Shown: one piece after another, positions 30,573 to 51,001 of the stretch
Layout: the number at the start of each line of letters is the position of its first letter
Numbering within the stretch: the first letter of the stretch is position 1
DNA from: Levilinea saccharolytica
Lineage (GTDB): Bacteria; Chloroflexota; Anaerolineae; Anaerolineales; Anaerolineaceae
Length of the DNA stretch: 64,000 bases
Assembly (NCBI RefSeq): GCF_001306035.1
Contig: NZ_LGCM01000002.1
Span: 62,001-126,000, forward strand
Reading direction: 5' to 3'
Position numbers and translations under genes: made by a program
Notes under the pieces: model-generated
Databases searched by the model: none
Seen by the model: only the letters and a program-made list of their open reading frames with translations
What the model was told of the DNA's origin: nothing

Positions 30573-30639
30573 TTAGCCAGGCGACCAAGCCCAGCCTCCA
30601 CCGGCGTGGGGGGATGATGGGGGGTAAGGGGGGTATCAT
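30573..30639 (+). promoter_or_regulatory. Shared-type promoter, copy 1
   Basis: GACCAA at 30583, C-rich half CCTCCACC (30595-30602), TGGGGGG (30607-30613), then -10 TATCAT at 30634-30639, exactly 51 bp after the first G of GACCAA. The position of a -35 hexamer (30611-30616) reads GGGATG. It serves the lipoprotein gene at 30662. Confidence 0.6.
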
Positions 30640-30661
30640 GGGTCGTGAAAGGAACTCAGCC

Positions 30662-31585
30662 ATGAAGAAAACCATTTTACCCCTCACCCTGCTTGCCCTG
30701 ACGGCCCTGGCCTGCAACATGACCGTTTCGTTTGCGCCCACCAGTCAGCCGGAGCCTGAACCCACCCGGGTGTCGCCCACTTTAACCTTGCCCGCCGCGC
30801 CGACGCAGGCCGTTCCCACGCAGCCGCAGCCGACGAGCGAAGTTCCCAATTTGCCGGAACCCACCGTTCCGCCGCAGCCGCTGAGCGGCTCGACCATCAC
30901 GTTTCACCGGCTGACGGTCACCCTGCCGCAAACGGTGGCGAATGGGGCCAGCGGCAGTGAAATTCCCCGCAATGACAGCCCCGAGGCGGCTCAATGGCAG
31001 AAAACCCCCGGGCATTTGCAGGTCAGCCTGGACGGCTATTACGCACTGCAAGGCAAGACAAACCAGCCAGCGATCTACGTTTTTCCGGCTTTGGAATACG
31101 CTGAACTGGCGCCCGCTGCCTTTGAGAGCATCCACCGCCTGCGGAACTATCTCTATGATCCTAACAACGTTCCGGCTCTGGATCAGATGCCTGGTGTGCC
31201 GTTTATGAACGCCAAGATCTTGTTCGCTGCGCAGATCCTGCCGCTGTCTTTCCAGAACGGCACAGGCGTGCGCTACATCACCGAATACGCCCAAGGCCCG
31301 GTGCAGGCCAATAACACCGACCTGTTCTACAACTACATCGGCGTGACGGATGACGGAAACGACTATGTCGTGGTCATCCTGCCCATCACCAGCCCGGTGC
31401 TGGCCGAAAGCGGCGATCTGAACGCGCCCGTCCCCAGCGGCGGCGTACCCTACCCGGACAACGGGCGGGCGGATCCCTATTTCATCGCCATCAGCGACCT
31501 GCTCAACGTGCAGCCGGGCGGCAGTTTTTCGCCCAGCCTGGACATGCTGGACAGCCTCATCCAATCAATCTCGATTGCTCCATAG
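30662..31585 (+). CDS. Lipoprotein of unknown function
   Basis: A 307-residue protein with a lipoprotein signal (LLALTALAC, cleavage before Cys19 or so), a Pro/Thr/Gln-rich stalk to about residue 75, then an extracellular domain of about 230 residues: ITFHRLTVTLPQTVANGASGSEIP, GHLQVSLDGYYAL, QPAIYVFPALEYAEL, FQNGTGVRYITEYAQGP and NYIGVTDDGNDYVVVILPI. This pattern is seen in surface lipoproteins of Anaerolineae but I cannot give it a function. The start at 30662 has AAGGA nine bases before it and begins the signal peptide. Promoter copy 1 precedes it. Confidence 0.85.
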   Translation: MKKTILPLTLLALTALACNMTVSFAPTSQPEPEPTRVSPTLTLPAAPTQAVPTQPQPTSEVPNLPEPTVPPQPLSGSTITFHRLTVTLPQTVANGASGSEIPRNDSPEAAQWQKTPGHLQVSLDGYYALQGKTNQPAIYVFPALEYAELAPAAFESIHRLRNYLYDPNNVPALDQMPGVPFMNAKILFAAQILPLSFQNGTGVRYITEYAQGPVQANNTDLFYNYIGVTDDGNDYVVVILPITSPVLAESGDLNAPVPSGGVPYPDNGRADPYFIAISDLLNVQPGGSFSPSLDMLDSLIQSISIAP

Positions 31586-31611
31586 TCCGCAGCCGGAGCG
31601 AACCTCCCCCA

Positions 31612-31637
31612 GCCAGGGGTGCAAGCGCACCCCTGGC
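31612..31637 (+). other. Strong intergenic hairpin before the GNAT gene
   Basis: A perfect 11-bp stem, GCCAGGGGTGC with its complement, and a 4-base loop. No T-run follows; AGAAAGG comes directly after it. It could stabilise or regulate the mRNA between the lipoprotein and GNAT genes rather than terminate. Confidence 0.6.
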
Positions 31638-31650
31638 AGAAAGGCTACGA

Positions 31651-32589: not shown

Positions 32590-32591
32590 AA

Positions 32592-32658
32592 CTGTCCACC
32601 TGACCAGTCCCGAACTCTCCCAAAATGGGGGAGGACGGGGCGGCCAGACCGGTATGAT
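32592..32658 (+). promoter_or_regulatory. Shared-type promoter, copy 2
   Basis: CTGTCCACCT (32592-32601), GACCAG (32602-32607), AACTCTCCC (32613-32621), TGGGGGAGGA (32626-32635), then -10 TATGAT at 32653-32658, 51 bp after the first G of GACCAG. It serves the acyl-CoA ligase-like / nitrilase / amidase operon. Confidence 0.7.
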
Positions 32659-32694
32659 GACTATACCAAAATTCTTTTGACACCGGAGAACCCT

Positions 32695-34071
32695 ATGACC
32701 TCATTCAACTTTTTGTCGATTGCCCAGGACGCCCGCCGGGTTACCCGCGGCACGCCGGAGATGCTGGCGGCACGCCAGATGGAACGGCTGAATGAACTGG
32801 TGGCCTTTGCGCGCGCTTTTTCTCCCTTCTACGCGGAAAAATACCGCGGCCTGCCCGATATCCTCAGCGACCCCCGCCAGCTGCCGCCGGTGACCAAACC
32901 GGAGCTGATGGAGCATTTTGATAAGGTCATCACGGATCCGGCCGTGCGCAAGGCGGATGTTCAAAAATATGTCGCGGATTTAGATAACCTGGGCAAACCT
33001 TTCCAGGGGAAATACATGGTGTGGACGACCTCCGGCACCACGGGGATGCCGGGTATTTTTCTAGAAGACAAGAATTGGGACACGGTGATCACTGCGGTGA
33101 ACGTGCTGCGCATTGGCGGCGAATGGTACAACTGGGGTGTGATCAAGGGCATGATGGCAGCGGGCGGCAAGAGTGCCTCCGTTTTCGCCGGAAACGGCCA
33201 CTTCTTCGGCGTGACCATGCTGGAACGGCAGCGCCGCAGCAACCGTTCGCGCGCCCAACGCATTCAGCTCATCCCCGTGACTCTGCCCATCGCTGAGATT
33301 GTGCAGCGCCTGAACGACCTGCAGCCGGCCATGTTCGCCGGATACGCCAGCGCCCTGGGTCTGCTGGCGCAGGAGCAATTGGAAGGGCGGCTGAGGATTC
33401 ACCCGGCCATCGTGATCAGCTCCGCGGAACCGCTTTCGGTGGAAAACCGCGCGTTGATCCAGCAGGCTTTTGGCGTGCCGCCGCGCAACAACTACGGCTG
33501 TTCGGAAGGCGGGGTGATGGGGTACGAGTGCCGCCAGGGGCGGATGCACCTGAACGCGGATTGGGTGCTTTTTGAGCCGGTGGACGCCGCGTACCAGCCG
33601 GTGCCCGCCGGGCAGCTTTCGGACCGTACACTGATCACCAACCTGGCGAACCGCGTCATGCCCATCATCCGCTACGAATTGGGCGACCGCGTGAGCCTGG
33701 CGGAGGAGCCGTGCGCTTGCGGGATCACCCTGCCGGTGGTGAACGTAGAGGGACGCACCGATGAGATCCTGCGGTTTGCTGCACCGGAGGGAAAGACCAT
33801 CCCCATCCTGCCGTTGGCGCTCTGGTCGGTGATCAAAGAAACGCCCGGCGTGCTGCGGTTCCAGGCCATTCAGACCGCGCCGGAACAGATCGAAATTCGC
33901 CTGGAAGCCAAAAACGCCGCGGAGGACGAACCCACCTGGGAACGGGTGTTCGCCAATACCCGCGCCTTTTTTGCCAGCCAGGGACTGAGCCAGGTGACCA
34001 TCACGCGGGCGGCGGAAGCGCCCATGCGCGACCCCAAGAGCGGTAAATTTCGCAATATTTGGAAGAAATGA
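32695..34071 (+). CDS. Phenylacetate-CoA ligase-like adenylate-forming protein
   Basis: A 458-residue protein of the PaaK/CapK group. The opening ARQMERLNELVAFARAFSPFYAEKYRGLP is typical, then the ATP motif TTSGTTGMPGIF (about 111-122), YGCSEGG (about 266-272), and the hinge region YELGDRVSL; the C-terminal subdomain ends DPKSGKFRNI, which supplies the usual catalytic Lys. It should activate a carboxylic acid as acyl-AMP and pass it to CoA or another acceptor. Substrate unknown. CGGAG precedes ATG. First gene of a unit with two amide-bond hydrolases, which would release an acid for it to activate. Confidence 0.87.
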   Translation: MTSFNFLSIAQDARRVTRGTPEMLAARQMERLNELVAFARAFSPFYAEKYRGLPDILSDPRQLPPVTKPELMEHFDKVITDPAVRKADVQKYVADLDNLGKPFQGKYMVWTTSGTTGMPGIFLEDKNWDTVITAVNVLRIGGEWYNWGVIKGMMAAGGKSASVFAGNGHFFGVTMLERQRRSNRSRAQRIQLIPVTLPIAEIVQRLNDLQPAMFAGYASALGLLAQEQLEGRLRIHPAIVISSAEPLSVENRALIQQAFGVPPRNNYGCSEGGVMGYECRQGRMHLNADWVLFEPVDAAYQPVPAGQLSDRTLITNLANRVMPIIRYELGDRVSLAEEPCACGITLPVVNVEGRTDEILRFAAPEGKTIPILPLALWSVIKETPGVLRFQAIQTAPEQIEIRLEAKNAAEDEPTWERVFANTRAFFASQGLSQVTITRAAEAPMRDPKSGKFRNIWKK

Positions 34072-34082
34072 AGGAGGCCAAC

Positions 34083-35048
34083 ATGAAAACCGTAACCCTC
34101 GCGGCGGCTCAGATGATCAGCCAGGACGGCTGCATCTTGGATAATTTGGCGCGCGCTTCGCACATGGCTGCACTGGCCAAAACTCAGGGCGCAGCGTGCG
34201 TGCTGTTTCCGGAATTCATGCCCCAGGGCTACCGGCTGACCCCGGAATTGTGGGACGCGGCAGAATGCTTCGACGGCCCCACCGTGCACTGGCTGGGAGA
34301 AACCGCGAGGAATCTGGGTGTTTATGTGGGGACCAGCTTTCTGGAAGCCAAAAACGGACATTTCTTCAACACCTTTGTTCTGGCGGAACCTTCGGGCAAA
34401 ATCGCCGGCGCGGTGCGCAAACGAAGCCCTTCGATGTGGGAAGCTTACTTCTTCAAAGGGGAACGGGGAAACCCCTATGTGGATACCGATCTGGGGCGGA
34501 TCGGGGTGGGCATCTGTTTTGACAACCACACCTACGAGGTGGCCAGCGCCATCCAGCAAAGCGGGATTGACCTGATGCTGATGCCGCACTCTTACTGCAC
34601 CCCCACCCAGACGACCAAAATGACCTCTCAGGCGGACATTGATCAGCTCAACGGCCGCCCTGGTTTGGTGGCGCGCCTGTATAACCAATGGTTTGGCGTG
34701 CCGGTGCTGATGTGCAACAAGAGCGGACCTTGGAACTCCCCTGTGCCTGACACCACCCTGGGCGTGCCGCAGGGCTTCCGTTTTTCGGGGCGTTCCACGC
34801 TGCTGGACGCGGATGGAACCCTGGCCGCTCAGCTTGGTGACGAAGAAGCCGTCCTGGTGGGAAGTGTGACCCTCGACCCGGCGCTGAAAAAGCAGACCCG
34901 CCCGGCCAAGTACAGCCGGTATATCTACCCTGGCTCACCGGGGCGCGAAATTATCCGCCTGATGGAGTGGCGCGGCAGCTTATCCTACCATTTTAGCTCG
35001 CTGCGGAAACAGAAAGCCTCAACGGTTCGCATGGAGAATTTTGGATGA
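34083..35048 (+). CDS. Carbon-nitrogen hydrolase (nitrilase superfamily)
   Basis: A 321-residue cytoplasmic enzyme with the Glu-Lys-Cys triad: VLFPEFMPQG (Glu44), GAVRKRSPSMWEA (Lys113) and GVGICFDNHT (Cys145). The spacing fits the superfamily, and members cleave nitriles, amides or carbamoyl groups. The substrate branch is not clear; the stretch MPHSYCTPTQTTKMTSQADIDQLNGRP is not one I know from a named branch. AAGGAGG lies six bases before the ATG at 34083, which decides the start. The stop overlaps the next start (ATGA), so the amidase that follows is coupled to it. Confidence 0.9.
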   Translation: MKTVTLAAAQMISQDGCILDNLARASHMAALAKTQGAACVLFPEFMPQGYRLTPELWDAAECFDGPTVHWLGETARNLGVYVGTSFLEAKNGHFFNTFVLAEPSGKIAGAVRKRSPSMWEAYFFKGERGNPYVDTDLGRIGVGICFDNHTYEVASAIQQSGIDLMLMPHSYCTPTQTTKMTSQADIDQLNGRPGLVARLYNQWFGVPVLMCNKSGPWNSPVPDTTLGVPQGFRFSGRSTLLDADGTLAAQLGDEEAVLVGSVTLDPALKKQTRPAKYSRYIYPGSPGREIIRLMEWRGSLSYHFSSLRKQKASTVRMENFG

Positions 35049-37117
35049 CACCCCACGACCCCAAGAAAAAGGAAAGTTACTTTGATGGAATCAAACAGGC
35101 CGCGCGCTTCATGGCGTTTGCCAACCGCAACGGGCAGGCGCTGAAAGCGCGGGGTCTGGTGGAAACGGCACGCACCACGCTGGCCCTGGCGAACATGGAA
35201 CTGGCCAAAATGGACTGCCGCCATCATCTGCAGACCCGCCGCATCTGGGAGTTTGATCAGGTGATGGTGTCTTTGACCCAGGGTAAGTGGTTTGCAGCCC
35301 GCGCCATGCAGTCGGGCGATAAGGCGGATTGGTCGGATGCGCTGGTGCAGCTCCGGCAGACCAACGCTGAGGCTAAGAGCCTGCACCATGCACTTCTTTC
35401 GGGCAGTGAGGAACCTCTGCCGATTTCGGAACGCCCCTTGGCGCAGCGAAACAGCGAAATTCTCTTCGCCGGAGACGTGCCGATTGTACCGCCGGTCAAC
35501 CCGATCATCCTGCTGCAAGGGTCTGATTTTGAGATGGGCCGCCAATATGCGCGCCAGGTGGTTGAGATTTTTGGAAAATGGGTGTTCGCCCGGCAGGCTG
35601 GACGGCCCTTCAGCGAGGCGGAAAAGCTGGAATTGAGCCGGTGGGAAGCGCAAATGCAGCAGCACGCGCCGGAAATGATCGGCTTCTGCCAGGGGTGGGC
35701 GGCTGGAGCGGTGGAAGCCGGTGTGCCGATGAGCTATGAAGATGTACTCAATATCTGGACCGGATGCCGGCCCCCGGCGCGGGACTATTTCGGCCTGGAC
35801 GGCGGTTTACCCGATGATCTTTATCCGCCCGCCTGTTCTGGGCATGCCGCCTGGGGACGCGCTACGCGCGATGGGCGCCTGGTGTGCGGCTCTTCCGGCG
35901 ACCATGATTGCGGCTATATGGCCACCCTTGTGATTTACCCCGAAAGCGGCTATCCATTTATCTACACCCCCTTTTCCGTCACCGGCGATTTGCCCAAGAT
36001 TGGGCCGGTGTACATGATGGGACATCCGGGGATGAACAATCAGGGATTGGCGTATGTCCATCACGGCGGGGCGCCCAAGATGATCGAAGCCCCTCAAAGC
36101 TGGGGGTACGGCATTCGCCTGGGCACAGCGGTGTTCCACATCCTGCGCTTCGCCCGCTCGGCGGAGGAGGCCCGCCAGATGGAAGCCTCATTCCCGATCG
36201 GCGACGTCGGGGATTTCTCCGGCGTGGGGTATCCTGGGGGATTTTGGGCAGATGAGCAGGGTGGGTTTGTCACCGAGAGCCGGCAGGAGCCGGAAATTAT
36301 CCGCACGGCGGGGCAGATGGGCGAAACCGATTTTCTGCTGGCCAACAACAGCGCCCTCAGCCGCGCGGCAGAAGCGGCGGCATGGCTAAAAGCCCAGCGT
36401 CATAATTGGGATTGGGATGAACACGCCGGATGGTACCCCAAGACGCTTTCGTTTGGAACTGGGCTGAGCGCCGTCGGTCAGGAGGCGCAAACCCAAAGCC
36501 TGTTTGCTTATATTTACCTGAACAGTTTTGGGCGAAACCGCTACGCATTTGAACAGCTGAACGCCGGACTGGGGCAGATTGACGCGGATTTCATGCGGCG
36601 GCTGTACCGCACGGCTGGCAGCCTTCCGGAAGGGGATTGGAAGCACGTCACGCAGCAGTGGCGCAAGACCGGCGCATGGGGCGAATATGCCAGCGGGCAC
36701 GCCTCGAACGCTCTGGTGGCAGTGATGCAGCCTGAGCGCGGTGAGGGGGGACGCTACGCGCTGTGCGTGGGCACGGCCAAGCGCGGCCTCCCGCCGCATT
36801 CACCCACCGGTGCAACGCCGATTTACGGCGAAACCAACGCGTTTTGGGAAGTGCGCCTGGCTTCCAGCCCGTCCGCGTTGACTGCGGCTGCCCGCCAGAC
36901 CGCGGAGCAGGACGCAGCCGCTGCCCGCGCTCGGTTGGAGAAATTGAATCCGCAGGATGCGGCTGGCGCCCGCCTGCAGGCTCTGCTCGATGCGGCTGAA
37001 GCAGATCTTGCTCGGCCTATGCCTGTGGATGGGGAGGCGGCGGATTATGCCAGGGCGGTGCGCGCCTATACCCGCGCGCAGGTACGCGCCCGGCAGATTG
37101 TGGATGCATTGGAATAA
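35045..37117 (+). CDS. C45-like (acyl-CoA:6-APA acyltransferase-type) Ntn hydrolase, large
   Basis: A 690-residue protein. The N-terminal 150 residues form a helical domain I do not recognise. From about residue 155 it follows C45 peptidase/acyltransferases: ILLQGSDFEMGRQYARQV, FCQGWAAGAVEAGVPMSYEDVL, then the proposed nucleophile Cys264 in PPACSGHAAWGRATRDGRLVCGSSGDHD, MGHPGMNNQGLAYVHHGG and DFLLANN. In this family the chain is cut before the cysteine, which becomes the active N-terminus and hydrolyses amide bonds of small molecules (beta-lactams, N-acyl amino acids). It is longer than usual (350-450). It lies between a nitrilase and an ABM-like gene. Confidence 0.8.
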   Translation: MTPHDPKKKESYFDGIKQAARFMAFANRNGQALKARGLVETARTTLALANMELAKMDCRHHLQTRRIWEFDQVMVSLTQGKWFAARAMQSGDKADWSDALVQLRQTNAEAKSLHHALLSGSEEPLPISERPLAQRNSEILFAGDVPIVPPVNPIILLQGSDFEMGRQYARQVVEIFGKWVFARQAGRPFSEAEKLELSRWEAQMQQHAPEMIGFCQGWAAGAVEAGVPMSYEDVLNIWTGCRPPARDYFGLDGGLPDDLYPPACSGHAAWGRATRDGRLVCGSSGDHDCGYMATLVIYPESGYPFIYTPFSVTGDLPKIGPVYMMGHPGMNNQGLAYVHHGGAPKMIEAPQSWGYGIRLGTAVFHILRFARSAEEARQMEASFPIGDVGDFSGVGYPGGFWADEQGGFVTESRQEPEIIRTAGQMGETDFLLANNSALSRAAEAAAWLKAQRHNWDWDEHAGWYPKTLSFGTGLSAVGQEAQTQSLFAYIYLNSFGRNRYAFEQLNAGLGQIDADFMRRLYRTAGSLPEGDWKHVTQQWRKTGAWGEYASGHASNALVAVMQPERGEGGRYALCVGTAKRGLPPHSPTGATPIYGETNAFWEVRLASSPSALTAAARQTAEQDAAAARARLEKLNPQDAAGARLQALLDAAEADLARPMPVDGEAADYARAVRAYTRAQVRARQIVDALE

Positions 37118-38945: not shown

Positions 38946-39012
38946 ATTCTAATGCCGTTCCGATTTATCCTCCCCCGCCGTTGGTTTCATCTCTTCCAGG
39001 CCATTTGACCCA
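38946..39012 (-). promoter_or_regulatory. Shared-type promoter, copy 3 (minus strand)
   Basis: On the minus strand GGCCTG begins at 39002, GGGGGAGGA follows at 38976-38968, and TAGAAT lies at 38951-38946, again 51 bases from the first G. The C-rich half of the inverted repeat is weak here. It serves the DUF2087/esterase unit. Confidence 0.55.
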
Positions 39013-39104: not shown

Positions 39105-39171
39105 CTGTCCATGTGGCCAGGGGCAGACTCCCACTGGGGTGGGGGAGCGCGGCGGGAAGCCGGAATAAAAT
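39105..39171 (+). promoter_or_regulatory. Shared-type promoter, copy 4
   Basis: CTGTCCATGT (39105-39114), GGCCAG (39115-39120), GACTCCCAC (39126-39134), TGGGGGAG (39140-39147), -10 TAAAAT at 39166-39171; 51 bp from GGCCAG to the -10. Promoters 3 and 4 diverge within the 332-base gap 38899-39230, which holds nothing else I can identify. Confidence 0.7.
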
Positions 39172-40120: not shown

Positions 40121-40187
40121 CTGGCCGGTTGACCAGGGGCGGACTCCCCCCAGGGTGAGGGAGGATTCGAAAAGACGAAGGTAAGAT
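40121..40187 (+). promoter_or_regulatory. Shared-type promoter, copy 5, probably leaderless
   Basis: CTGGCCGGTT (40121-40130), GACCAG (40131-40136), GACTCCCCCC (40142-40151), GTGAGGGAGGA (40155-40165), -10 TAAGAT at 40182-40187, again 51 bp. The ATG at 40194 is where transcription should start, so the GNAT/VOC/kinase/regulator mRNA would be leaderless. Confidence 0.7.
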
Positions 40188-41540: not shown

Positions 41541-44500
41541 ATGCGCCGCTTCATCTTCTTTCTGCCCATTCTGATGATCCTGGCTGTCCTTCAGCCGGTT
41601 TCCGCCCAAAGCGGCGGCACTACCTTTGCCCCTGGCGCGCATGTGCGCTTTGAACACCTCACCATTGACGACGGCCTTTCACAAAACGCTGGTCTGGCCT
41701 TGCTGCAAGACCATCAGGGGTATCTGTGGATTGGCACGCAGGACGGATTGAACCGCTACGACGGTTACACTCTGACCCAATTTAAATATGACCCAGAGGA
41801 ACCGACCAGCCTCAGCCACAACAGCATCATCGCCTTGTATGAGGACGCGGACGGGTTTTTGTGGGTTGGCACCTGGGGCGGCGGCCTGAACCGTTTTGAC
41901 CCCGCCTCACAGACCTTCACGCGCTACACCCCAGACCCCGCCAAACCCAACGCGATCAGCAGCGACATTGTGACGGATATCCTCCGCGATGCGCAGGGCG
42001 TTTATTGGGCGGCCACTTTTGGCGGGCTGAACCGCTTTGACCCGGCCAGCGGGACGTTCACCCCGTACCGTCACGACCCCAACGACCCCGCCAGCCTGGC
42101 GAGCGACACCCTCTCGGTGCTGCTGCCTGGGCCGGACGGCAAGATTTGGGTGGGCAGCGGGGCTTTCAGCACGCCTGGGGCGGGTTTGAGCCTGTTTGAC
42201 CCGGCCGCGGGCACGGCTCAACGCCTGGAAAAAACGGGCAGCTGCCTGGCTTCACCCAACGTTGCGGATCTTTTGGCCGACCCGGACGGAAGCCTCTGGA
42301 TCGCGTACGGCGGCTATGGGGTGGCGGGCGGTGGATTAGACCATTACAACCCGCAGACCGGGGCCTGCAAACATTATGACATTACCCCTGCTCCGGGCGG
42401 TCAGATCACGGATAACAACCTCACCGATCTGGCCTTTGACCGCGACGGCGCGCTGTGGGCGGCCAGTTGGTCGGGCGGGCTGTGGCGCTTGTCAGCGGAT
42501 GGGCACCTGACCAGCATCCGTCACAACCCCGCCGATCTGGAAAGCCTGTCCAGCGATAACACTTTCACGGTGCTGCCCGACCGCTCCGGGGTGATCTGGG
42601 TGGGCACGCTGAGCGCGGGCATTAATAAGCTCAACCTGGATACTCTGCAATTCCGCACTTACCGCCACGACCCATCCAACCCCAACAGCCTGCCCAGCAA
42701 CCACACCAGCGCTTTCGCCGAAACCAGCGACGGCATCCTGTGGCTGGGGAGCATTGAAAGCGGCCTGGTGCGCTTTGACCCGGCCAGCGGTGAATTCAGC
42801 GCCTTCCGTTCTGACCCGGAGGATCCACAGAGCATCTCCGGGGATATGATCCTCAGCCTGTGGGCGGATGCAGACGACACCCTGTGGGTGGGCACCCTGG
42901 GCAGCGGCCTGAACCACTTTAACCCTCGCACGGGTATTTTTACCCATTATCAAAATGACCCTGCCGACCCCCACAGCCTGCTGGAAAACCAGGTGACGCA
43001 TATCATCCGCGACCGGGCGGGACGGCTGTGGGCGGCGAATTTTTCCGGCCTCTCCCGGTTTGATCCTGCTGCCGGGGGCTTTGTGAACTACCCCTTGCCT
43101 GCGCCGCCGGTGTGCCTGGGCCTAGTGGGAGATGAATTGTGGGCAGGCACCTGGGGCGGCGGTCTGTACCGGCTGAACCTTGCGGACCCGGCCAGCCTGG
43201 ACCCGGCGGCAGCGGTGTTTACCAGCCTGAAACACGACCCGACCAACGCCAACTCGCTCAGCAATGACGGCGTGTGGACCATTCTGCAAACCCCAGACGG
43301 CATGGTTTGGCTGGGAACTCAAGCAGGCTTCAACCGCTACGATCCGCAGACAGGGCAGTTTAAGATCTACATGGAGAAGGACGGCCTGCCCAACCCCTCA
43401 ATCCTGGGCATATTGCGCGATTCGCAGGGCTTTTTGTGGCTGACCACCAATCACGGCGTGGCGCGCTTTGACCCGCAGGCAGAGACCTTTCAGTTGTATG
43501 AAAAAAGTGACGGCCTGCAAGGCAACGAATTCAATTCCAACGCCTATTTTCAGAGCCGCAGCGGCGATTTCTACGTGGGAGGCGTTGACGGCTTCAGCGC
43601 GTTCGACCCGCTGCGGCTGCAGCGCGACAGCCTGCCACCGCCGGTGGTCATCACCCAGTTCTCGGTCTTCAACACCCCTCAGACGTTTAACCCGCGGGAA
43701 AGCATTCGCCTGAACTACGACCAGAATTTCATCTCGTTTGAATTCGCCGCTCTCGACTTCCAGGCTCCGCACAAGAATCAGTATGCCTATAAATTAGAGG
43801 GCTTCGATAAGGATTGGGTGCAGGCCGGGACACGCAACTACGCCAGTTACACCAACCTGCCGGGCGGAAATTATTCTTTTCGCGTGCGCGCTGCTAACAG
43901 CGACGGTGTGTGGAATGAGACTGGGGTTTCGCTGCCGCTGACGGTCACGCCGCCTTTCTGGCAGACCTGGTTTTTCCGCGTGGGGTTGGCGGTGGGCCTC
44001 CTGGCGCTGGTGGCGGCGGGATTTCAATGGCGGGTGCGGGCGGTGCGCGCGCAGAACGCCCAACTGCAAGCAGTGGTGGATGAGCAAAAGCTGGTAGAGG
44101 CGAAATTGAGGGAGTCTGAGGCGCGTTTTCGGGCCATGTACGAAAACGCCGCCATCGGCATCAGCCTGATCGCCCCCGATGGGCGCGTGCTGAGCGTGAA
44201 CCCCGTGCTGGAAAAGTTGGCCGGCCGCAGCGAAGAGGAATTGATGCGATTGGGCGGTCAGGGGATCACCTATCCGGACGACCGCGATATCGGCCGGGTG
44301 GAGCTGGGTGAAATCTTGGCCGGGAAGCGCGATTCGTTTCAGGCGGAAAAGCGTTACGTGCATAAGGACGGCCGGGTGCAGTGGATGCGCCAGAGCATCT
44401 CGGCTGTGCGGCAGGCGGACGGAAAGCTGTTGTATCTGGTGGTAATCGCCGAGGATATTGACGAGCGAAAACGCGCCGTGGAAGAGCTGCGCCAATCGGA

Positions 44501-45575
44501 AGCGCGCTTTAAGGCCATCTTTGAAAACTCCGCCGTGGGGATGGGGCTGATGTCGCTGGACCGCATTGTGTTAGATTCCAACCCGGCGATGACGGCGATG
44601 GTGGGGTACACGCGGGAAGAATTGGTCGGCAGCAGCCCAGCGATGGTGACGTACCCAGAGGATTTCCCTTCGTCCACCGAAAGTTTTCAAAAGCTGCTGT
44701 CCGGTGAGATGACCCATTACGTGGCTGAGCGGCGGTATGTGCGCAAGAACGGCGAGGTATTCTGGACACAGATTTCAATGAGCCTGGTGCGCGATCCGCA
44801 GGGCAAGCCGCTGTATCTGGTGGGGCTGCTCAACGATATTGACGCCCAAAAACGGGCGGCTGAGAGGCTGGCCGCGCAGGAAGCCGAACACCGCCGCACC
44901 CTGGAACAGCGCATCGCGGAGCGCACGGAGGAACTGAACCTGGCCAATGAACGCCTGCGGGAAAAGGCCGCGCAAGATGCGGTCATTGCCGAGCGCACCC
45001 GCCTGGCGCGCGATTTGCACGACGCGGTGACGCAGACCCTGTTCTCCACCACCCTGATCGCCGATGTGCTGCCTGAGATTTGGGCGATGAACCCGGATGA
45101 AGGCCGCCGGCGGTTGGAGGAAATTCGCCAGCTGACGCGCGGCGCGCTGGCAGAAATGCGCACGCTGCTGGTGGAACTGCGCCCTAACGCCCTGGTGGAG
45201 GTGCCGCTGCCGACGCTGCTGCGGCAGCTGACCGAGGCCCTGTCGGGCCGCTCGCGGATCAACATTCAGCTCAGTGCTATGGGGGAACGCAAGCTGCCTG
45301 CGGATGTGCAGGTGGGGCTGTACCGCCTGGCGCAGGAGGCGCTGAACAATGTGGTCAAGCATGCCAAGGCCAGCGAGGCGGTGGTGACTCTGCGGTGCAG
45401 CGAGGAAACTGTGCGGCTGATGGTGGCGGATAACGGCGTGGGCTTTGACCCGTCCACGGTGACGGCTGACCACCTGGGCTTGAAGATTATGCGGGAACGC
45501 GCCGAGGCGATCGGTGCAAAATTGACCATTTACAGCGAACCCGGTGAGGGGACGCAAATCACCGTTGTGTGGTGA
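41541..45575 (+). CDS. Propeller-type sensor histidine kinase with two PAS domains
   Basis: A 1344-residue inner-membrane sensor. A signal peptide (1-22) is followed by a periplasmic two-component-regulator propeller (about 35-690) made of repeats such as GYLWIGTQDGLNRYD and GFLWVGTWGGGLNRFDP, then a Y_Y_Y domain (YAYKLEGFDKDWVQAGTRNYASYTNLPGGNYSFRV split over about 740-790) and a transmembrane helix (about 811-830). In the cytoplasm come PAS domains at about 858-975 and 986-1105, a coiled coil, a HisKA_3 dimerisation domain with His1160 (ARDLHDAV) and a HATPase (EALNNVVKHA, NGVGFDP). HisKA_3 kinases partner NarL-type regulators, and one follows directly. The propeller presumably senses an oligosaccharide or other extracellular ligand. 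Confidence 0.94.
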   Translation: MRRFIFFLPILMILAVLQPVSAQSGGTTFAPGAHVRFEHLTIDDGLSQNAGLALLQDHQGYLWIGTQDGLNRYDGYTLTQFKYDPEEPTSLSHNSIIALYEDADGFLWVGTWGGGLNRFDPASQTFTRYTPDPAKPNAISSDIVTDILRDAQGVYWAATFGGLNRFDPASGTFTPYRHDPNDPASLASDTLSVLLPGPDGKIWVGSGAFSTPGAGLSLFDPAAGTAQRLEKTGSCLASPNVADLLADPDGSLWIAYGGYGVAGGGLDHYNPQTGACKHYDITPAPGGQITDNNLTDLAFDRDGALWAASWSGGLWRLSADGHLTSIRHNPADLESLSSDNTFTVLPDRSGVIWVGTLSAGINKLNLDTLQFRTYRHDPSNPNSLPSNHTSAFAETSDGILWLGSIESGLVRFDPASGEFSAFRSDPEDPQSISGDMILSLWADADDTLWVGTLGSGLNHFNPRTGIFTHYQNDPADPHSLLENQVTHIIRDRAGRLWAANFSGLSRFDPAAGGFVNYPLPAPPVCLGLVGDELWAGTWGGGLYRLNLADPASLDPAAAVFTSLKHDPTNANSLSNDGVWTILQTPDGMVWLGTQAGFNRYDPQTGQFKIYMEKDGLPNPSILGILRDSQGFLWLTTNHGVARFDPQAETFQLYEKSDGLQGNEFNSNAYFQSRSGDFYVGGVDGFSAFDPLRLQRDSLPPPVVITQFSVFNTPQTFNPRESIRLNYDQNFISFEFAALDFQAPHKNQYAYKLEGFDKDWVQAGTRNYASYTNLPGGNYSFRVRAANSDGVWNETGVSLPLTVTPPFWQTWFFRVGLAVGLLALVAAGFQWRVRAVRAQNAQLQAVVDEQKLVEAKLRESEARFRAMYENAAIGISLIAPDGRVLSVNPVLEKLAGRSEEELMRLGGQGITYPDDRDIGRVELGEILAGKRDSFQAEKRYVHKDGRVQWMRQSISAVRQADGKLLYLVVIAEDIDERKRAVEELRQSEARFKAIFENSAVGMGLMSLDRIVLDSNPAMTAMVGYTREELVGSSPAMVTYPEDFPSSTESFQKLLSGEMTHYVAERRYVRKNGEVFWTQISMSLVRDPQGKPLYLVGLLNDIDAQKRAAERLAAQEAEHRRTLEQRIAERTEELNLANERLREKAAQDAVIAERTRLARDLHDAVTQTLFSTTLIADVLPEIWAMNPDEGRRRLEEIRQLTRGALAEMRTLLVELRPNALVEVPLPTLLRQLTEALSGRSRINIQLSAMGERKLPADVQVGLYRLAQEALNNVVKHAKASEAVVTLRCSEETVRLMVADNGVGFDPSTVTADHLGLKIMRERAEAIGAKLTIYSEPGEGTQITVVW

Positions 45576-45635: not shown

Positions 45636-46265
45636 ATGTCTGACATCATCCGCATTATGCTTGTAGACGACCACGCGGTGGTGCGCTCCGGGTTGAGCGC
45701 ATTTCTGAGTGTGAACCCCGATTTGGAACTGGTGGGGGAGGCTGAAAACGGCGAACAGGCCGTTGTACGCGCGGGGCTGCTGAAACCAGATGTGATCCTG
45801 ATGGATTTGATGATGCCGGTGATGGATGGGGTGGCGGCGACGGCAGCCATCAAGAAGCAGTATCCCCACATTCAGGTCATCGCCCTGACCAGTTTTCAGG
45901 AAGATGAACTGGTGCAGAACGCGCTGCGGGTGGGGGCGATTGGTTATTTGATGAAGAATGTCAGCGCCCGCGAGCTGGCTGCTGCCATCCGCGCGGCCAA
46001 AGAAGGCAAGGTGACGCTTTCACCCGAAGCCACCCAGGCCCTGGTTCACTTTAGCCAGCAGCCTCAGGAGGCTGAAATCCTCACCGAGCGCGAGCGCGAA
46101 GTGCTCAAGCTGATGGTGGAAGGCCTCAACAACGCTGAAATTGCGGAGCGGTTGGTGGTCAGCCTCTCGACGATCAAATACCACATCAGCAATATCCTGA
46201 TGAAATTAGGCGTCGATAACCGTGTGGCAGCTGTGACCACGGCGATGAATAAGAAACTGGTGTGA
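45636..46265 (+). CDS. NarL/LuxR-family response regulator, partner of the kinase
   Basis: A 209-residue regulator. The receiver has IMLVDDHAVVRSGL, LMDLMMPVMDG with phospho-acceptor Asp57, and Lys in LMKNVSA. The C-terminal LuxR helix-turn-helix (about 143-205) has LTEREREVLKLMVEGLNNAEIAERLVVSLSTIKYHISNILMKLGV. It should be phosphorylated by the preceding HisKA_3 kinase and bind inverted repeats. The shared promoters in this block carry a G-tract/C-tract inverted repeat centred near -41, the place where such activators work; this link is an inference. Last gene of its unit. Confidence 0.95.
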   Translation: MSDIIRIMLVDDHAVVRSGLSAFLSVNPDLELVGEAENGEQAVVRAGLLKPDVILMDLMMPVMDGVAATAAIKKQYPHIQVIALTSFQEDELVQNALRVGAIGYLMKNVSARELAAAIRAAKEGKVTLSPEATQALVHFSQQPQEAEILTEREREVLKLMVEGLNNAEIAERLVVSLSTIKYHISNILMKLGVDNRVAAVTTAMNKKLV

Positions 46266-46287: not shown

Positions 46288-46322
46288 GCAACGGGTTCCT
46301 CTGCCGCGAGGGACCCGTTATT
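46288..46322 (+). terminator. Intrinsic terminator after the response regulator
   Basis: AACGGGTTCCTC (46288-46299), loop TGCCGC, GAGGGACCCGTT (46306-46317), then ATTTTG. Confidence 0.8.
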
Positions 46323-46340
46323 TTGCGGGACAGGGCAGAA

Positions 46341-46407
46341 CTACCCATCCGGCCAAGGCCGTACCCAACTCTCGGAGGGGGCAGGAAAAAGGCCAGGGGC
46401 CTACACT
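46341..46407 (+). promoter_or_regulatory. Shared-type promoter, copy 6
   Basis: CTACCCATCC (46341-46350), GGCCAA (46351-46356), ACCCAACT (46363-46370), GGAGGGGGCAGGA (46374-46386), -10 TACACT at 46402-46407; 51 bp again. It serves the degenerate receiver / ABC exporter unit. Confidence 0.65.
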
Positions 46408-46430
46408 TAAAGCAGAAAGAGAGATGCGAT

Positions 46431-46826
46431 ATGAACCGAATTCTGCTGGCTCACCCACTTCCTACCTTCCGTTCGGCCCTGGCGCTGCTGCTGGAGACCC
46501 GCCTGGATGTGCAAATTATCGAGCAGGTGAACAGTATGGAGGGCTTATTGTGCGAAGCTGCGGCTGTTCAGCCCGACTTTGTGATCCTGAGCCAGGAATT
46601 GCTGGGTGGGCCGGTGTGCGCGCGGTTGACGGCGCTGCGCCAGCAGGCCCCGTATGTGAAAATATTGGTCGTGTGCGCCCGCCCAGATGCGGACCTGCCG
46701 GTGGATTGCACCGACGCCGTTTTTTGCCATACCGACCTGCCTGAAACCATCGTTGCCAGCATGCAGGCGTTGATCCAGTTTTCCAGGTCAAAGGGAATCT
46801 GCCAGGGCAGCAGCTCGATCCCGTGA
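46431..46826 (+). CDS. Stand-alone degenerate receiver (pseudo-response-regulator)
   Basis: A 131-residue protein with the receiver rhythm but without its chemistry. Where the regulator at 45636 has MLVDDHAVVRSGL it has LLAHPLPTFRSAL, and where the phospho-acceptor Asp should be (VILMDLMMP) it has VILSQELLG with Ser54. The conserved Lys near the end is replaced by CHTDLPETI. There is no DNA-binding domain. It may bind the kinase, the regulator or the following ABC ATPase without phosphorylation. The frame is open upstream, but 46431 begins exactly with the first strand and lies 24 bases after the -10 box. Confidence 0.72.
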   Translation: MNRILLAHPLPTFRSALALLLETRLDVQIIEQVNSMEGLLCEAAAVQPDFVILSQELLGGPVCARLTALRQQAPYVKILVVCARPDADLPVDCTDAVFCHTDLPETIVASMQALIQFSRSKGICQGSSSIP

Positions 46827-46928: not shown

Positions 46929-47807
46929 ATGAAACTCACCATCACGAATCTATCCAAACAATACCGCCGCGACTTTTTTGGGCTGAAGGATTTCAGCCTG
47001 GAATTGACCCCCGGCATCACGGGTTTGCTCGGCCCCAATGGAGCCGGGAAATCCACCCTGATGCGCATTCTGGCAACAATCAACCAGCCCACCTCGGGCA
47101 CGGTCTTGTGGAACGATGTGGATATCGTAAAGTCGCCGGATACGCTGCGCGCGGTGCTGGGTTACCTGCCGCAGGATTTTGGGATTTACCCCAATCTGAA
47201 TGCAGTCGAGTTCCTGGAATATATGGCCGCGATTAAAGGCCTGGACAGCAAAGCCGCCCGGCGCCGCATTGAAGAACTGCTGCAGGTGGTCAACCTGGTG
47301 GAAGCGGCCAAACGACCCTTGGGCGGCTATTCGGGCGGGATGAAACAGCGTGTGGGCATCGCCCAGGCCCTGCTCAACGATCCGCAGCTGCTGATTGTGG
47401 ATGAACCGACCGTCGGCCTGGACCCGGAGGAACGGGTGCGCTTCCGCAACCTGCTCACGGATCTGTCTGGGGACCGCATCATTATCCTGTCCACGCACAT
47501 CGTCTCGGATGTGGAGGCGGCTGCCTCTGAAATTGTGATGATTAACCGGGGGCGTAAACTTCAGCACGCTGCACCGGAGCAACTTTTGACCCTATTGGAC
47601 GGCAAAGTCTGGCAGTGGGTGATCTCAGCGGATAAGCTGCCTGAACTCAAACGTGAATATCTTGTCAGCGGGGTGCTGCGCCGTGAAAACGGGATGCAAG
47701 TGCGGGTGGTGAGCGAAACTGCGCCCGCGCCTCAGGCAGAATGCGTGGCACCCAGCCTGGAAGATGTGTATCTGCGCGAGGTCAGCCAGGAGGGGGCATC
47801 CAAATGA
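46929..47807 (+). CDS. ABC-2 type transporter ATP-binding protein
   Basis: A 292-residue ATPase: Walker A GLLGPNGAGKSTLMRIL (about 34-50), Q-loop YLPQDFGIYPNL, signature YSGGMKQRVGIAQALL, Walker B LLIVDEPTVGLDPEER and switch LSTHIV. The C-terminal 70 residues are the extra domain of drug/antibiotic or surface-polymer exporters of the ABC-2 group. The stop overlaps the first permease start (ATGA). Together with the two following permeases it would form an export complex. Confidence 0.93.
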   Translation: MKLTITNLSKQYRRDFFGLKDFSLELTPGITGLLGPNGAGKSTLMRILATINQPTSGTVLWNDVDIVKSPDTLRAVLGYLPQDFGIYPNLNAVEFLEYMAAIKGLDSKAARRRIEELLQVVNLVEAAKRPLGGYSGGMKQRVGIAQALLNDPQLLIVDEPTVGLDPEERVRFRNLLTDLSGDRIIILSTHIVSDVEAAASEIVMINRGRKLQHAAPEQLLTLLDGKVWQWVISADKLPELKREYLVSGVLRRENGMQVRVVSETAPAPQAECVAPSLEDVYLREVSQEGASK

Positions 47808-49369
47808 GAAACTTGCACAGCGTGTATCACCTGGCCCGGGCCGATTTTTTGGAACGGACGCGCCGCACCAGTTTCCTGGTGATGGTGGGGCTGGTGCTGT
47901 ACCTCGGTTATCTGGTCAACATAGGTCAAGTGACCCTGCGGCTGGAAACCTACCGCGGTGTGTTTAACTCGGCCTGGGTGGGCAGCATGATGACCCTGGT
48001 GGTCAACTTCCTGCTCGGCTGGTTTGGCTTTTATCTGGTGAAGGGGGCCATCGCCCGCGACTACCAGACCGGGGTGGGTCAGATCATGGCGGCCACCCCG
48101 CTCTCACGCCCGCTGTACCTGCTGGGCAAATGGCTGAGCAATATGGCCGTGCTGGATTTGATGGTGTTTGCGCTGATGATCGCCGCTCTGGTGATGCAGC
48201 TGATTCAACGCGAGGACGCCGTCATCCACGTGTGGGCGCTGATATCCCCGTTTTTGCTGGTGGCGCTGCCTTTCATGGCCCTGGTGGCGGCGATTGCGGT
48301 GCTGTTTGAGTGCATTTCCTGGCTGCGCGGCAGTTTTGGCAACCTGGTGTACTTTTTTGGCTTCATCATGGGCATCGCGCTGGTTGCCATTATGTTTGGC
48401 GAAGCCGTGCCGGTGTTGGATTGGCTGGGCTTTGGGGTGTTTAAAACCAGTATGGCGCAGGCGGCCAAAGCCGCCTACCCTGATTACAGCGGCGGCCTGG
48501 CTCTGAGCCTGGTTCCAGCCAGCGGCAATATCCAACCGTTTCACTGGGCGGGGGTGACCTGGACGCTGCCGCTGCTTCTGCCGCGCCTGGGGATTTGGGC
48601 CCTGGCGCTGGGGCTGACCCTGGCCAGCTCTGTGGTTTTTGACCGATTTTCTCAAGCCGGTATGCCCCGGCGGAAAAAATCCGCATCCCCAGCGGCCGAG
48701 GTGCCTGCGACGGCGGCAGCCCCCGCGGCTGCACAAAAAAGCATCAGCCTGACCCGGCTGCCAGCTGCCTCTGCCCGGTTTTCGCTTGGGCGTTTGTTCC
48801 TGGCCGAATGGCGCTTGACGGTGCGCGGGATGCCCTGGTGGTGGTATCTGGCCGCGCTGGGGCTGATCGGCGGGTCGCTGGTTCTGCCGCTGGAAAACCT
48901 GCGGAGCTGGGTGCTGCCCGCTGCGTTGATCTGGCCGCTGCTGGTGTGGAGCGGGCTGGGCTGCCGTGAGGCGCGTTATGCCACCGGGCAATTCGTTTTT
49001 TCTGGGCCGCGGCCGCTGCGGAGCCAACTGCCGGCAGCCTGGTTGGCCGGGATGAGCCTGTCGCTGCTGATGGGCGGCGGCGCGCTGCTGCGCTTTGCTC
49101 TGGCCGGGGACTGGACGAGTTTCACCGCTCTGGCGGCCGGGCTGCTGTTCATCCCCTCGCTGGCGCTGGCGCTGGGCGTTTGGACGGGCAGCAGCAAGGC
49201 CTTTGAGGTGGTGTACGCTGTCTTTTGGTATCTGGGCGTGCTGAACGATGTGCTGGAGCTGGATTTCACCGGCCTGCACGCTTCGGGCCACTGGCCGATC
49301 TACCTTTTCTTGAGTCTGGCCTTGTTCGCCCTTGCCTTTTGGGGGCGAAAGCGGCAGCTTCAACACTGA
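47804..49369 (+). CDS. ABC-2 type permease, first of a paralogous pair
   Basis: A 521-residue inner-membrane protein with about 12 hydrophobic segments in two halves joined by a Pro/Ala-rich linker (about 285-325). It starts ARADFLERTRRTSFLVMVGLVLYLGYL and has GWFGFYLVKGAIARDYQTGVGQIMAATPLSRPLYLLGKWLSN, matched nearly residue for residue by the next gene. AGGAGG lies 8 bases before the ATG, which overlaps the ATPase stop. Half-size ABC-2 permeases have six helices; here two sets appear fused in one chain. Confidence 0.88.
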   Translation: MRNLHSVYHLARADFLERTRRTSFLVMVGLVLYLGYLVNIGQVTLRLETYRGVFNSAWVGSMMTLVVNFLLGWFGFYLVKGAIARDYQTGVGQIMAATPLSRPLYLLGKWLSNMAVLDLMVFALMIAALVMQLIQREDAVIHVWALISPFLLVALPFMALVAAIAVLFECISWLRGSFGNLVYFFGFIMGIALVAIMFGEAVPVLDWLGFGVFKTSMAQAAKAAYPDYSGGLALSLVPASGNIQPFHWAGVTWTLPLLLPRLGIWALALGLTLASSVVFDRFSQAGMPRRKKSASPAAEVPATAAAPAAAQKSISLTRLPAASARFSLGRLFLAEWRLTVRGMPWWWYLAALGLIGGSLVLPLENLRSWVLPAALIWPLLVWSGLGCREARYATGQFVFSGPRPLRSQLPAAWLAGMSLSLLMGGGALLRFALAGDWTSFTALAAGLLFIPSLALALGVWTGSSKAFEVVYAVFWYLGVLNDVLELDFTGLHASGHWPIYLFLSLALFALAFWGRKRQLQH

Positions 49370-49377
49370 GTGACCGC

Positions 49378-50916
49378 ATGAACATCCTCTATGCCATTGT
49401 CCGCGCTGATTTTCTGGAGCGAGTTCGCCGCTACAGTTTCCTGATGATGCTGGGGCTGGTGGTCTGGCTGGGATACGCCAGCGCCAGCCAGCAGATCATC
49501 CTGCGGGTGCCGCCCGATTACGTAGGGGAGATCAACTCCCATTGGGTTGGCGCGCTGATGGCCATGACCGCCACGCTCTTTTTGGGCTGGTTTGGGTTTT
49601 ACCTGGTCAAAGGCTCGGTGGCGCGCGATTACGAGACCGGCGTGGGGCAGATCATGGCGGCCACACCGCTGACTCGTCCGCTGTACGCCCTGGGTAAGTG
49701 GCTGAGCAACCTTGCGGTTCTGGGGGTGATGCTGCTGATTCTGCTGGCTGCCGGGGTCGTCATGAATCTGGCGATGGGCGCGCCCCTGGACCTGTGGGCC
49801 ATATCTGCCCCGATTTTGCTCATCGCGCTGCCTTGCCTGGCGCTGGTCGCCGCCCTGGCTGTGCTGTTCGATACCATCCCCTGGCTGCGCGGCGGGCTGG
49901 GGAATTTGGTTTACTTTTTCGCTTTTATCCTGAGCCTGATCCCCAGCATTGAAGGCGAAACCTACCAGCCTCTGCTGGATTTTACCGGCTTTCGGCTGAT
50001 CGGCGACCAGATTGCACTGGCTGCGCTGCGCGCCTACCCCGAAAGCCAGGGCGGGTTTGCCTTTTCGTTCACCAGCGGTCTGGTCCCTCGCTATTTCCCG
50101 TATCACGGCATCCCCTGGACGGGCGAGATGGTGCTGTGCCGCTTGTTCTTTGTTTTTGCGGCGCTGATGCTCACCCTGCTGGCGGCGGTTTTCTTTGACC
50201 GCTTCAGCCCATCTCGCCTCAAACCGCCCAAAAAGCGCAATGCCCCCCAGGTGGAGCCGGAGGCAGCTGTGGAGCGCGCCGCGCGCCCCAACCCCCGCCT
50301 GACCCCGCTGAGCGGCGCGCGGGCCGGTTTCCGGTTTGATGCGCTTTTCACCGCCGAGTTGAAATTGTTCTTGAAAGGTCAGCCCTGGTGGTGGTATGCC
50401 GCCGCAGGCGGCTTGATCCTGGCTCAGCTGCTGAGCGACCTGGATTCCACCCGGATGCTGCTGGCCGCGGCCTGGGTGTGGCCGATCCTGCGCCTAAGCC
50501 AAATGGGCTGCCGGGAGGCGCGCTGCGATATGCGCCAACTCTTGTTCTCGGCCCCGCGGCCGCTGCTCAACCAGCTGCCTGCGTTGTGGCTGGCGGCTAT
50601 TGCCGTGCTGGCGCTGCTGGGCTCCGGCGCGTTCATCCGCTTTTTGGCTGCGGGTGCATGGGCCAGTCTGCTGCCCTGGCTGGCGGGCGCCATGTTCGTC
50701 CCTTCGCTGGCGTTGGCCCTGGGCGTGCTGACCGGTTCCGGGAAACCCTTTGAAGTGATCTATGTGCTGTGGATGTACGGGGTGATGCAGCGGGTGCCCG
50801 CCTTTGATTTTGTCGGTACCAGCCCGCAAAGCCCCTGGTATTTTTATGCCCCATTGGCGTTGGGTCTGACGGCTGCGGCCTTCCTCATCCGGCAAATGCA
50901 GATGAAAAGCCGCTGA
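49378..50916 (+). CDS. ABC-2 type permease, second of a paralogous pair
   Basis: A 512-residue paralogue of the preceding gene. VRADFLERVRRYSFLMMLGLVVWLGYA, WFGFYLVKGSVARDYETGVGQIMAATPLTRPLYALGKWLSNLAV and PWWWYAAAGGLI with MGCREARCDMRQLLFSAPRPLLNQLPALWLA all have counterparts there. The pair arose by tandem duplication and probably forms a heterodimer with the ATPase at 46929. The start at 49378 is eight bases after the previous stop. A hairpin with a T-run follows the stop by about 40 bases. Confidence 0.88.
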   Translation: MNILYAIVRADFLERVRRYSFLMMLGLVVWLGYASASQQIILRVPPDYVGEINSHWVGALMAMTATLFLGWFGFYLVKGSVARDYETGVGQIMAATPLTRPLYALGKWLSNLAVLGVMLLILLAAGVVMNLAMGAPLDLWAISAPILLIALPCLALVAALAVLFDTIPWLRGGLGNLVYFFAFILSLIPSIEGETYQPLLDFTGFRLIGDQIALAALRAYPESQGGFAFSFTSGLVPRYFPYHGIPWTGEMVLCRLFFVFAALMLTLLAAVFFDRFSPSRLKPPKKRNAPQVEPEAAVERAARPNPRLTPLSGARAGFRFDALFTAELKLFLKGQPWWWYAAAGGLILAQLLSDLDSTRMLLAAAWVWPILRLSQMGCREARCDMRQLLFSAPRPLLNQLPALWLAAIAVLALLGSGAFIRFLAAGAWASLLPWLAGAMFVPSLALALGVLTGSGKPFEVIYVLWMYGVMQRVPAFDFVGTSPQSPWYFYAPLALGLTAAAFLIRQMQMKSR

Positions 50917-50934
50917 GGCAGACCAGGGATAGAC

Positions 50935-51001
50935 CTATCCACCCGGCCAGTGCTCAACTCCCCCCGCGATGGGGGAGTTTTTTATGGCATTCGGATATAA
51001 C
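50935..51001 (+). promoter_or_regulatory. Shared-type promoter, copy 7
   Basis: CTATCCACCC (50935-50944), GGCCAG (50945-50950), AACTCCCCC (50956-50964), GGGGGAGTT (50971-50979), -10 TATAAC at 50996-51001; 51 bp from GGCCAG to -10. The inverted repeat is perfect here. It serves the small lipoprotein at 51038. Confidence 0.65.
50956..50983 (+). terminator. Terminator of the ABC exporter unit, inside promoter copy 7
   Basis: AACTCCCCC, 6-base loop, GGGGGAGTT and six T in a row (50978-50983) make a good intrinsic terminator. The same bases are the inverted repeat of the next promoter. Confidence 0.75.

Follow-up and report, generated by a model that had tools for sequence, protein, structure and literature searches.

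In a 64,000-nt stretch of the Levilinea saccharolytica genome (the window), seven transcription units were preceded by promoters of one shared design, which was confirmed to be genuine. In this design a near-palindrome (box A) and a box B region, the latter at the place of the -35 element, stand ahead of a -10 hexamer of the housekeeping type. We consider it likely that the seven promoters are the targets of one local, autoregulated two-component system, and that they are housekeeping-sigma promoters without a -35 box. Control by the NarL-family response regulator encoded within the cluster (45636-46265) is well supported by the co-occurrence of the promoter motif with close relatives of this regulator in other genomes.

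Detection and anatomy of the seven promoters

All seven copies described in an earlier note on this DNA were found in place, with a -10-like hexamer beginning 51 bp past the first G of a GRCCAR sequence. A matrix (the foreign model) was built from 82 copies in other genomes, with the own genome and that of a sister species excluded. Scored with this model, the seven claimed sites took ranks 1 to 7 among all window positions on both strands (50945, 66.2; 40131, 36.3; 32602, 30.0; 39115, 27.3; 30583, 17.0; 46351, 6.9; and 39002 on the minus strand, -6.1), the eighth-ranked position reaching -14.8 and the best position in 20 base-shuffled windows -11.2; the search pattern behind the model had been derived from the window copies, and all 82 copies had been required to carry TANNNT at the standard offset. 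Leave-one-out scoring within the window agreed for six of the sites. Nine positions outscored 39002(-), namely six training sites and three others; because the foreign model placed exactly the seven claimed sites on top, the finding was taken as real and 39002(-) as a degenerate member. With a matrix made from the seven window copies, their own sites scored 48-61 bits against 5.0 for the next position, which is a circular test. A consensus promoter scan of the window listed none of the seven promoters, as expected from their lack of a -35 box, and gave 19 terminator-like sites against 14.4 in shuffles.

The features of the cluster, with predicted targets, were as follows.

30549-30564, plus strand: extra palindrome CTGACCAACTGGCCAG, 24 bp before box A of promoter 1, with one mismatch to the box A pattern
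30573-30639, plus strand: promoter 1, foreign rank 5; box A 30573-30588, B region 30595-30616 (CCTCCACC..GTGGGGGG), -10 TATCAT 30634-30639
From ATG 30662, plus strand: target gene of promoter 1, no Pfam match at E ≤ 1
32592-32658, plus strand: promoter 2, foreign rank 3; box A 32592-32607, B region 32614-32635, -10 TATGAT 32653-32658
32677-37117, plus strand: targets of promoter 2, acyl-CoA-ligase-like, nitrilase and C45-acyltransferase-like genes
38946-39012, minus strand: promoter 3, the weakest, foreign rank 7 with a score below 0 bits; box A 39012-38997, B region 38990-38969, -10 TAGAAT 38951-38946
38898-38467 and 38463-37522, minus strand: targets of promoter 3, a DUF2087 protein and an esterase, respectively
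39105-39171, plus strand: promoter 4, divergent from promoter 3, foreign rank 4; box A 39105-39120, box B 39127-39148, -10 TAAAAT 39166-39171
39231-40085, plus strand: target gene of promoter 4, no Pfam match at E ≤ 1
40121-40187, plus strand: promoter 5, foreign rank 2; box A 40121-40136, box B 40143-40164, -10 TAAGAT 40182-40187
Behind promoter 5, plus strand: its targets, GNAT, glyoxalase, sensor kinase and response regulator genes
41541-45575, plus strand: sensor histidine kinase of 1344 amino acids, with Reg_prop propeller, Y_Y_Y, PAS, HisKA_3 and HATPase_c in the domain scan
45636-46265, plus strand: NarL-family response regulator, with receiver and GerE helix-turn-helix in the domain scan; closest PDB matches are VraR entries
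46290-46325, plus strand: hairpin AACGGGT...ACCCGTT with ATTTT after it, downstream of the regulator gene and ahead of promoter 6; seen by eye, not in the consensus scan
46341-46407, plus strand: promoter 6, foreign rank 6; box A 46341-46356, B region 46363-46384, -10 TACACT 46402-46407
46431-46826 and 46929-50916, plus strand: targets of promoter 6, a receiver-like gene (ATG 46431) and ABC exporter genes, respectively
50935-51001, plus strand: promoter 7, the best copy, foreign rank 1; box A 50935-50950, box B 50957-50978 plus T-tract, -10 TATAAC 50996-51001
51038-51448, plus strand: target gene of promoter 7, a small protein with a lipoprotein signal at only E 0.18

Promoter anatomy was derived from 89 copies, which had been collected without using the -10. 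In these, box A is separated by about 6 bp from box B, which is often followed by a T-tract, and a housekeeping-type -10 comes last (T 88, A 89, T 67, N, A 66, T 88 percent). TANNNT lay at the standard offset in 75 copies, one base off in eight and two off in one, and was out of range in five. Box A, CTRTCCA-NN-TGRCCAG, is a 16-bp near-palindrome centred at about -65, with positions 0, 5, 10 and 15 being C (98%), C (99%), G (98%) and G (97%). A CTRTCCAY sequence ten bases ahead of GRCCAR had previously been listed as an additional element; it is present, not as a separate one, and the two form the halves of box A. A fuller palindrome, CTRTCCA-NN-TGGAYAG, was seen in a number of relatives' copies among the matches listed. 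Box B, ACTCCCCC-N6-GGGGGAGT, is a symmetric palindrome 22 bp long with its centre at about -41, both centres being counted back from the -10. It occupies the -35 place, and G33 in its loop was conserved in 94% of copies. As had been claimed, the -35 position was GGGGAG-like and not TTGACA, which held for most copies. The claimed inverted repeat ACTCCCCC/GGGGGAG was clear in four or five of the window copies, but was absent or broken at 39002(-) and 46351. The bases C23-C28-G33-G38 inside box B lie in the same 5-bp frame as those of box A, and might form a second regulator box, for which they are suggestive only.

In the sampled loci, 77 of 82 box B sequences had a box A (≤2 mismatches) at the expected place. 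In these 77 copies, from relatives and window together, the start-to-start distance from A to B was 22 bp in 64, 21 bp in 11 and 23 bp in two, and that from B to the -10 was 39 bp in 70, including all 13 with an altered A-B gap. The rigid unit is therefore box B plus the -10. The "invariant 51 bp" of the earlier note thus held for the seven window copies, but the GRCCAR side flexed by 1 bp across relatives. Box A alone (373 occurrences with ≤1 mismatch in the sampled loci) was followed by TANNNT within one base of offset 61 in 34% of cases, as compared with 1-6% at sampled non-overlapping offsets from 50 to 106; the overlapping offset 62 gave 30%.

Individual promoters showed further variation. 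The interior of the box B palindrome was one base shorter in promoter 2, the B region of promoter 3 was without a GC hairpin, and that of promoter 6 had no good hairpin, while promoter 7 was called terminator-like by the consensus scan. The counterpart of promoter 3 in the sister species (L051 16075) scored 27.3 bits with the window-trained matrix. Besides the extra palindrome ahead of promoter 1, a further box was found in two promoters of genome G041 (L055, near 3029 and 4820), some 23 bp upstream of the one adjacent to box B, so three-box promoters may exist. The hairpin at 46290-46325 was read by eye as the regulator gene's own terminator.

Distribution of the motif and its link to the response regulator

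A 43-bp form of the motif was searched for in 400 genomes of the order, with ≤3 mismatches. It was found in 26 of them, often in clusters, for example as seven copies on contig 4 of G400 and seven over two contigs of G381. The reversed pattern had no match in the 400 genomes, and a chance pattern was rejected on this result together with the foreign-model ranking. In the own genome the 43-bp form gave four matches, every one of them in this cluster, and the 33-bp core (≤3 mismatches) gave five, comprising three window copies without mismatch and two sites elsewhere with three mismatches. In two genera (L153, G136 contig 44; L167, G111 contig 229), two promoter copies were identical over 43 bp, pointing to a part of the cluster that was recently transferred or is closely related.

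The copies lay ahead of genes. A start signal was scored where, at a distance of 21-66 bases from the first base of the -10, an ATG accompanied by a Shine-Dalgarno-like stretch opened a frame of 60 codons or more. It followed 63 of the 89 copies but only 4.0% of 1780 positions picked at random from those loci. A heuristic gene caller placed five of 110 copies inside a gene. A looser rule, which asked only for some 60-codon frame in the next 260 bases, was passed by 84 of the 89 copies; it says nothing, because 86% of random positions also passed. A dispersed repeat, which the earlier note had named as a possible refutation, or a mobile element was rejected on the start-signal and intragenic counts and on the confinement of the own-genome 43-bp matches to the cluster.

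The earlier note had proposed the NarL-type regulator at 45636-46265 as the controlling protein, and this was well supported by co-occurrence and by A-type boxes directly behind some genes for distant relatives. Regulator and motif were searched for in two draws of 400 genomes of the order at the same settings, and the p-values take genomes as independent. Where a regulator relative was found at E < 1e-80, the motif was present in 12 of 14 genomes, compared with 26 of 400 overall (Fisher p 3e-14), and 23 of the 26 motif genomes were among the 129 with a regulator relative at E ≤ 1e-60 (Fisher p 1e-9). On public contigs, the motif was present in 13 of 17 loci whose regulator was at least 75% identical; eight of the 17 overlap genomes already in the sample, and the motif was found in five of the nine others. 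Motif-bearing public records included Candidatus Chloroploca mongolica, Candidatus Chloroploca sp. Khr17 and Candidatus Oscillochloris fontis. The 63 loci with a regulator below 70% identity, many of them from Bacillota, contained two weak matches of 13-14 bits (L208 and L209); these appear at an 11-bit cut, the Fisher test having used 0 of 63 at a 15-bit cut picked after the scores were known.

Of 55 regulator genes with an identity of 55% or more, 14 were followed by a box A-type site no more than 160 bp away, whereas such a site was present in about 2% of random windows; the distance limit cuts off -10 boxes lying farther out. The DNA-reading helix SLSTV/IKYH was constant in 22 of 23 regulator sequences of more than 80% identity, repeat records included. 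In only a handful of cases, variant boxes were paired with variant helices, CTGGCCA-NN-TGGCCAG with SRSTVKFH and CTATCCA-NN-TGGCTAG with SLGTVKFH. A kinase and regulator of this type were located in the same or an adjoining stretch in L053, L148/L149, L152, L153, L154 and L155, and the GNAT of promoter 5 belongs to the second-largest family behind the promoter (8 of 84). A paralogous kinase-regulator pair, with a 64% identical regulator, was observed on G000 contig 32 (L063, site at 20919-20934) and G001 contig 50 (L062). Directly behind its regulator gene stood CTGGCCA-NN-TGGCCAG with TATGAT at the same offset and without a GC palindrome, and this pair possibly represents a sister regulon with altered specificity.

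Several observations weigh against control by this regulator. Fourteen of the 26 motif genomes had no regulator relative at E < 1e-80; in 11 of these a regulator of about 59-66% identity was found, and G216, G302 and G411 had none at E ≤ 1e-60, although in the G411 locus (L173) a regulator is present but cut at the contig end. Conversely, G358 and G405 have a close regulator but not the 43-bp form; L188, which its coordinates suggest to be a G405 contig, contains a weaker copy. No copy was found in four of the 17 close-regulator contigs, two of them shorter than 8 kb. Box A followed within 160 bp after only three of 19 close regulators and after none of 65 distant ones, for whose contigs chance would give just 0.2-0.3%. 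Also, the co-occurrence of motif and regulator partly reflects shared descent, and the assumption of activation is drawn from geometry alone.

Proposed mechanism and alternative explanations

In the proposed mechanism, the propeller-type kinase (41541-45575) would phosphorylate the LiaR/VraR-like regulator (45636-46265), a dimer of which would bind box A near -65. Box B, near -41, would be occupied by a second regulator dimer or by a partner protein, and the protein bound there would bring RNA polymerase, carrying the housekeeping sigma factor, to the -35-less promoter. Such recruitment would be possible because box B sits at the -35 place and is locked to the -10; since it replaces the -35 element, the promoter is expected to need an activator at this place, and we infer activation rather than repression on this ground. 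A second regulator dimer is our first choice as the occupant of box B, by analogy with phosphorylated VraR and LiaR, which use a secondary site, and because copies without a GC hairpin, inspected by eye, often had ACY..ACC..YGG at this place. Promoter 5 precedes the gene run that includes kinase and regulator, so that positive feedback would arise if this run is one operon.

Box B might also have a double role, serving as DNA as the activator's second operator in place of the -35 element, and as RNA as the intrinsic terminator of the preceding gene. We put this forward tentatively and regard it as somewhat doubtful. If it were true, each unit would be shielded from read-through and would answer only to its own activator, and a compact terminator-operator-promoter cassette would have been multiplied along Chloroflexota gene clusters, often a few bases past the previous stop codon. 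In that case a single natural sequence would be both activator site and terminator.

The same observations could be explained if box B were only the intrinsic terminator of the upstream gene, with a promoter made up of box A and the -10 alone; we consider this unlikely. Many box B copies form a C-run/G-run hairpin followed by a T-tract, which is poor in some, and the copy of promoter 7 was called terminator-like. Where the upstream gene was on the same strand, 34 of 81 copies began ≤9 bp after its stop codon or overlapped it. Hairpins were better within 60 bp of that stop than farther away (9.6 versus 8.1 of 11 pairs, p 0.006) or than in divergent copies (p 0.007), and promoter 6, with its poor hairpin in B, has a separate hairpin with a T-tail just upstream. 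Upstream strands were called imperfectly, the window copy at 50935 having been miscalled, so these insulation statistics should be read as indicative only; strong hairpins also exist in divergent copies, subject to the same error-prone strand calls. Counts of base pairs in box B gave 41 double changes against 14 in shuffles, but a slid control likewise reached 41, which makes the pair counts equivocal.

Several results argue that box B is more than a terminator. When box B alone was searched for (≤1 mismatch) in 12 genomes selected for carrying the motif, it was found at 45 places, of which 41 had a box A with ≤2 mismatches, three a diverged box A (two in G041 and one in G377) and one none (G049). 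Its exact sequence thus hardly occurs outside these promoters (44 of 45 places belong to them); a terminator of the ordinary kind would be expected at gene ends again and again. Moreover, box B is locked to the -10 more tightly than box A, and no hairpin needs the conserved loop base G33. At three further sites (L208 2856, L209 10655 and 12567), box A-like sequences were followed by long C-run/G-run hairpins with another loop and a TANNNT one base off. Two of these sites lay directly behind more distant regulators, and they possibly show an intermediate form of an arrangement of box A plus terminator.

Less likely still is that the linked regulator is no more than a frequent neighbour, boxes A and B being read by a different DNA-binding protein whose gene lies elsewhere. 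In its favour, no regulator relative above about 66% identity was found in the search in 14 of the 26 motif genomes, and the two boxes differ in sequence and could bind different proteins. The linkage spans, however, records labelled as different lineages (Anaerolineae metagenome-assembled genomes, Candidatus Chloroploca and Oscillochloris), and some paralogous regulators are followed directly by a box A in a matching variant, in the handful of cases described above.

The earlier note had suggested either a regulon or a sigma-factor class, and only the former is well supported; a distinct alternative sigma factor recognising the GGGAG/-10 pair would account for a GGGGAG-like -35 place in most copies, but is scarcely credible because the -10 is an ordinary housekeeping one over 89 copies, so that the -35 is the sole element replaced, as it is in promoters that depend on an activator, and its substitute is a symmetric 22-bp palindrome instead of an asymmetric hexamer. 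Furthermore, box A sites behind regulators, picked regardless of the -10, were mostly without the GC palindrome and had TANNNT at +59 to +63 in 11 of 14 cases, and among the 18 cluster genes scanned there was no sigma-factor gene, the Sigma70_r4 matches of the regulator falling on its GerE helix-turn-helix.

Genes of the regulon and comparison with known systems

The products of the window cluster comprised two GNATs, an acyl-CoA-ligase-like protein, a nitrilase-family hydrolase, a C45 acyltransferase-like protein, a weak ABM-domain protein, an esterase, a DUF2087 protein, a glyoxalase-fold protein, a receiver-like protein and an ABC exporter. When the downstream proteins were grouped by single linkage, those encoded behind promoters 1 and 4 fell in the largest cluster (18 of 84). 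The receiver-like protein (46431-46826) matched Response_reg at E 0.03; in G400 (L150 11412) a comparable gene, with Response_reg at E 1e-4, was observed behind a motif copy. In relatives, 20 downstream proteins were scanned, nine of 30 listed representatives having been left out. They included three CAAX-protease-like proteins, two LiaF/LiaI-like membrane proteins (one below the Pfam cut-off), an ABC exporter, an MFS transporter, a serine hydrolase, a DUF998 protein, an alpha/beta hydrolase, a flavodoxin, a SnoaL-like protein, a piece of an FAD-dependent oxidoreductase and a receiver-like protein; six of the 20 had no match at E ≤ 0.001. By analogy with LiaR, an envelope-stress or antimicrobial response would be our guess for the function of the regulon. 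Elsewhere in the window, an ordinary transfer-messenger RNA gene (17052-17445, minus strand, tag ANRTSYAAMPLAA) and an ordinary tRNA-Val gene (23757-23831, minus strand) were observed.

The regulon comes with a candidate regulator, a 68-bp module that can be scanned for reliably, and target lists in 26 of 400 genomes as well as in contigs titled Candidatus Chloroploca and Oscillochloris. What the propeller kinase senses thereby becomes a testable question. In the literature covered, which left out most subscription journals, no description of this element or of such a response-regulator regulon in Anaerolineae or relatives was found.

NarL-type operators have a 7-2-7 arrangement. Box A resembles them in consisting of two inverted heptamers 2 bp apart, and the regulator is of the NarL/GerE family; the heptamer sequence is, however, a different one, and Escherichia coli NarL was a weaker PDB match (9e-36). 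Among solved structures, to which this comparison was confined, the regulator was nearest to entries named VraR (5hev, 5e-54; 7ve6 and 4gvp, 2e-49), ahead of ChrA (4e-36), NarL and DevR (3e-35). This brings the system close to the cell-envelope-stress regulators LiaR, known from the Bacillus subtilis liaI promoter, and VraR of Staphylococcus aureus.

According to the available text of PMC7191749, the LiaR operator motif is T(X)4C(X)4G(X)4A, with a primary site covering -76 to -52. In their phosphorylated state VraR and LiaR make use of a secondary site, which in the case of VraR lies downstream of the primary one, according to that text. Box A, C(X)4C(X)4G(X)4G, has the 16-bp dyad with inner C at 5 and G at 10 in common with this motif, but its outer bases are C..G where those of LiaR are T..A, and it does not match the LiaR operator as such. 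The two systems also differ in the sensor, which here is a 1344-amino-acid propeller/PAS kinase and not LiaS, and in the GC palindrome of the box B type fixed at -41, which the available text of that source does not describe for LiaR or VraR. No LiaF family was matched among the window cluster proteins scanned. Shared features are that the own locus contains all four own-genome 43-bp matches and that the relatives' targets include LiaF-TM/LiaI-like proteins (one above and one below the Pfam cut-off), CAAX proteases and a DrrA-like exporter. Because of the different outer bases of box A and the other type of sensor, the system was not filed as a LiaR/VraR regulon; by analogy, it plausibly works like one.

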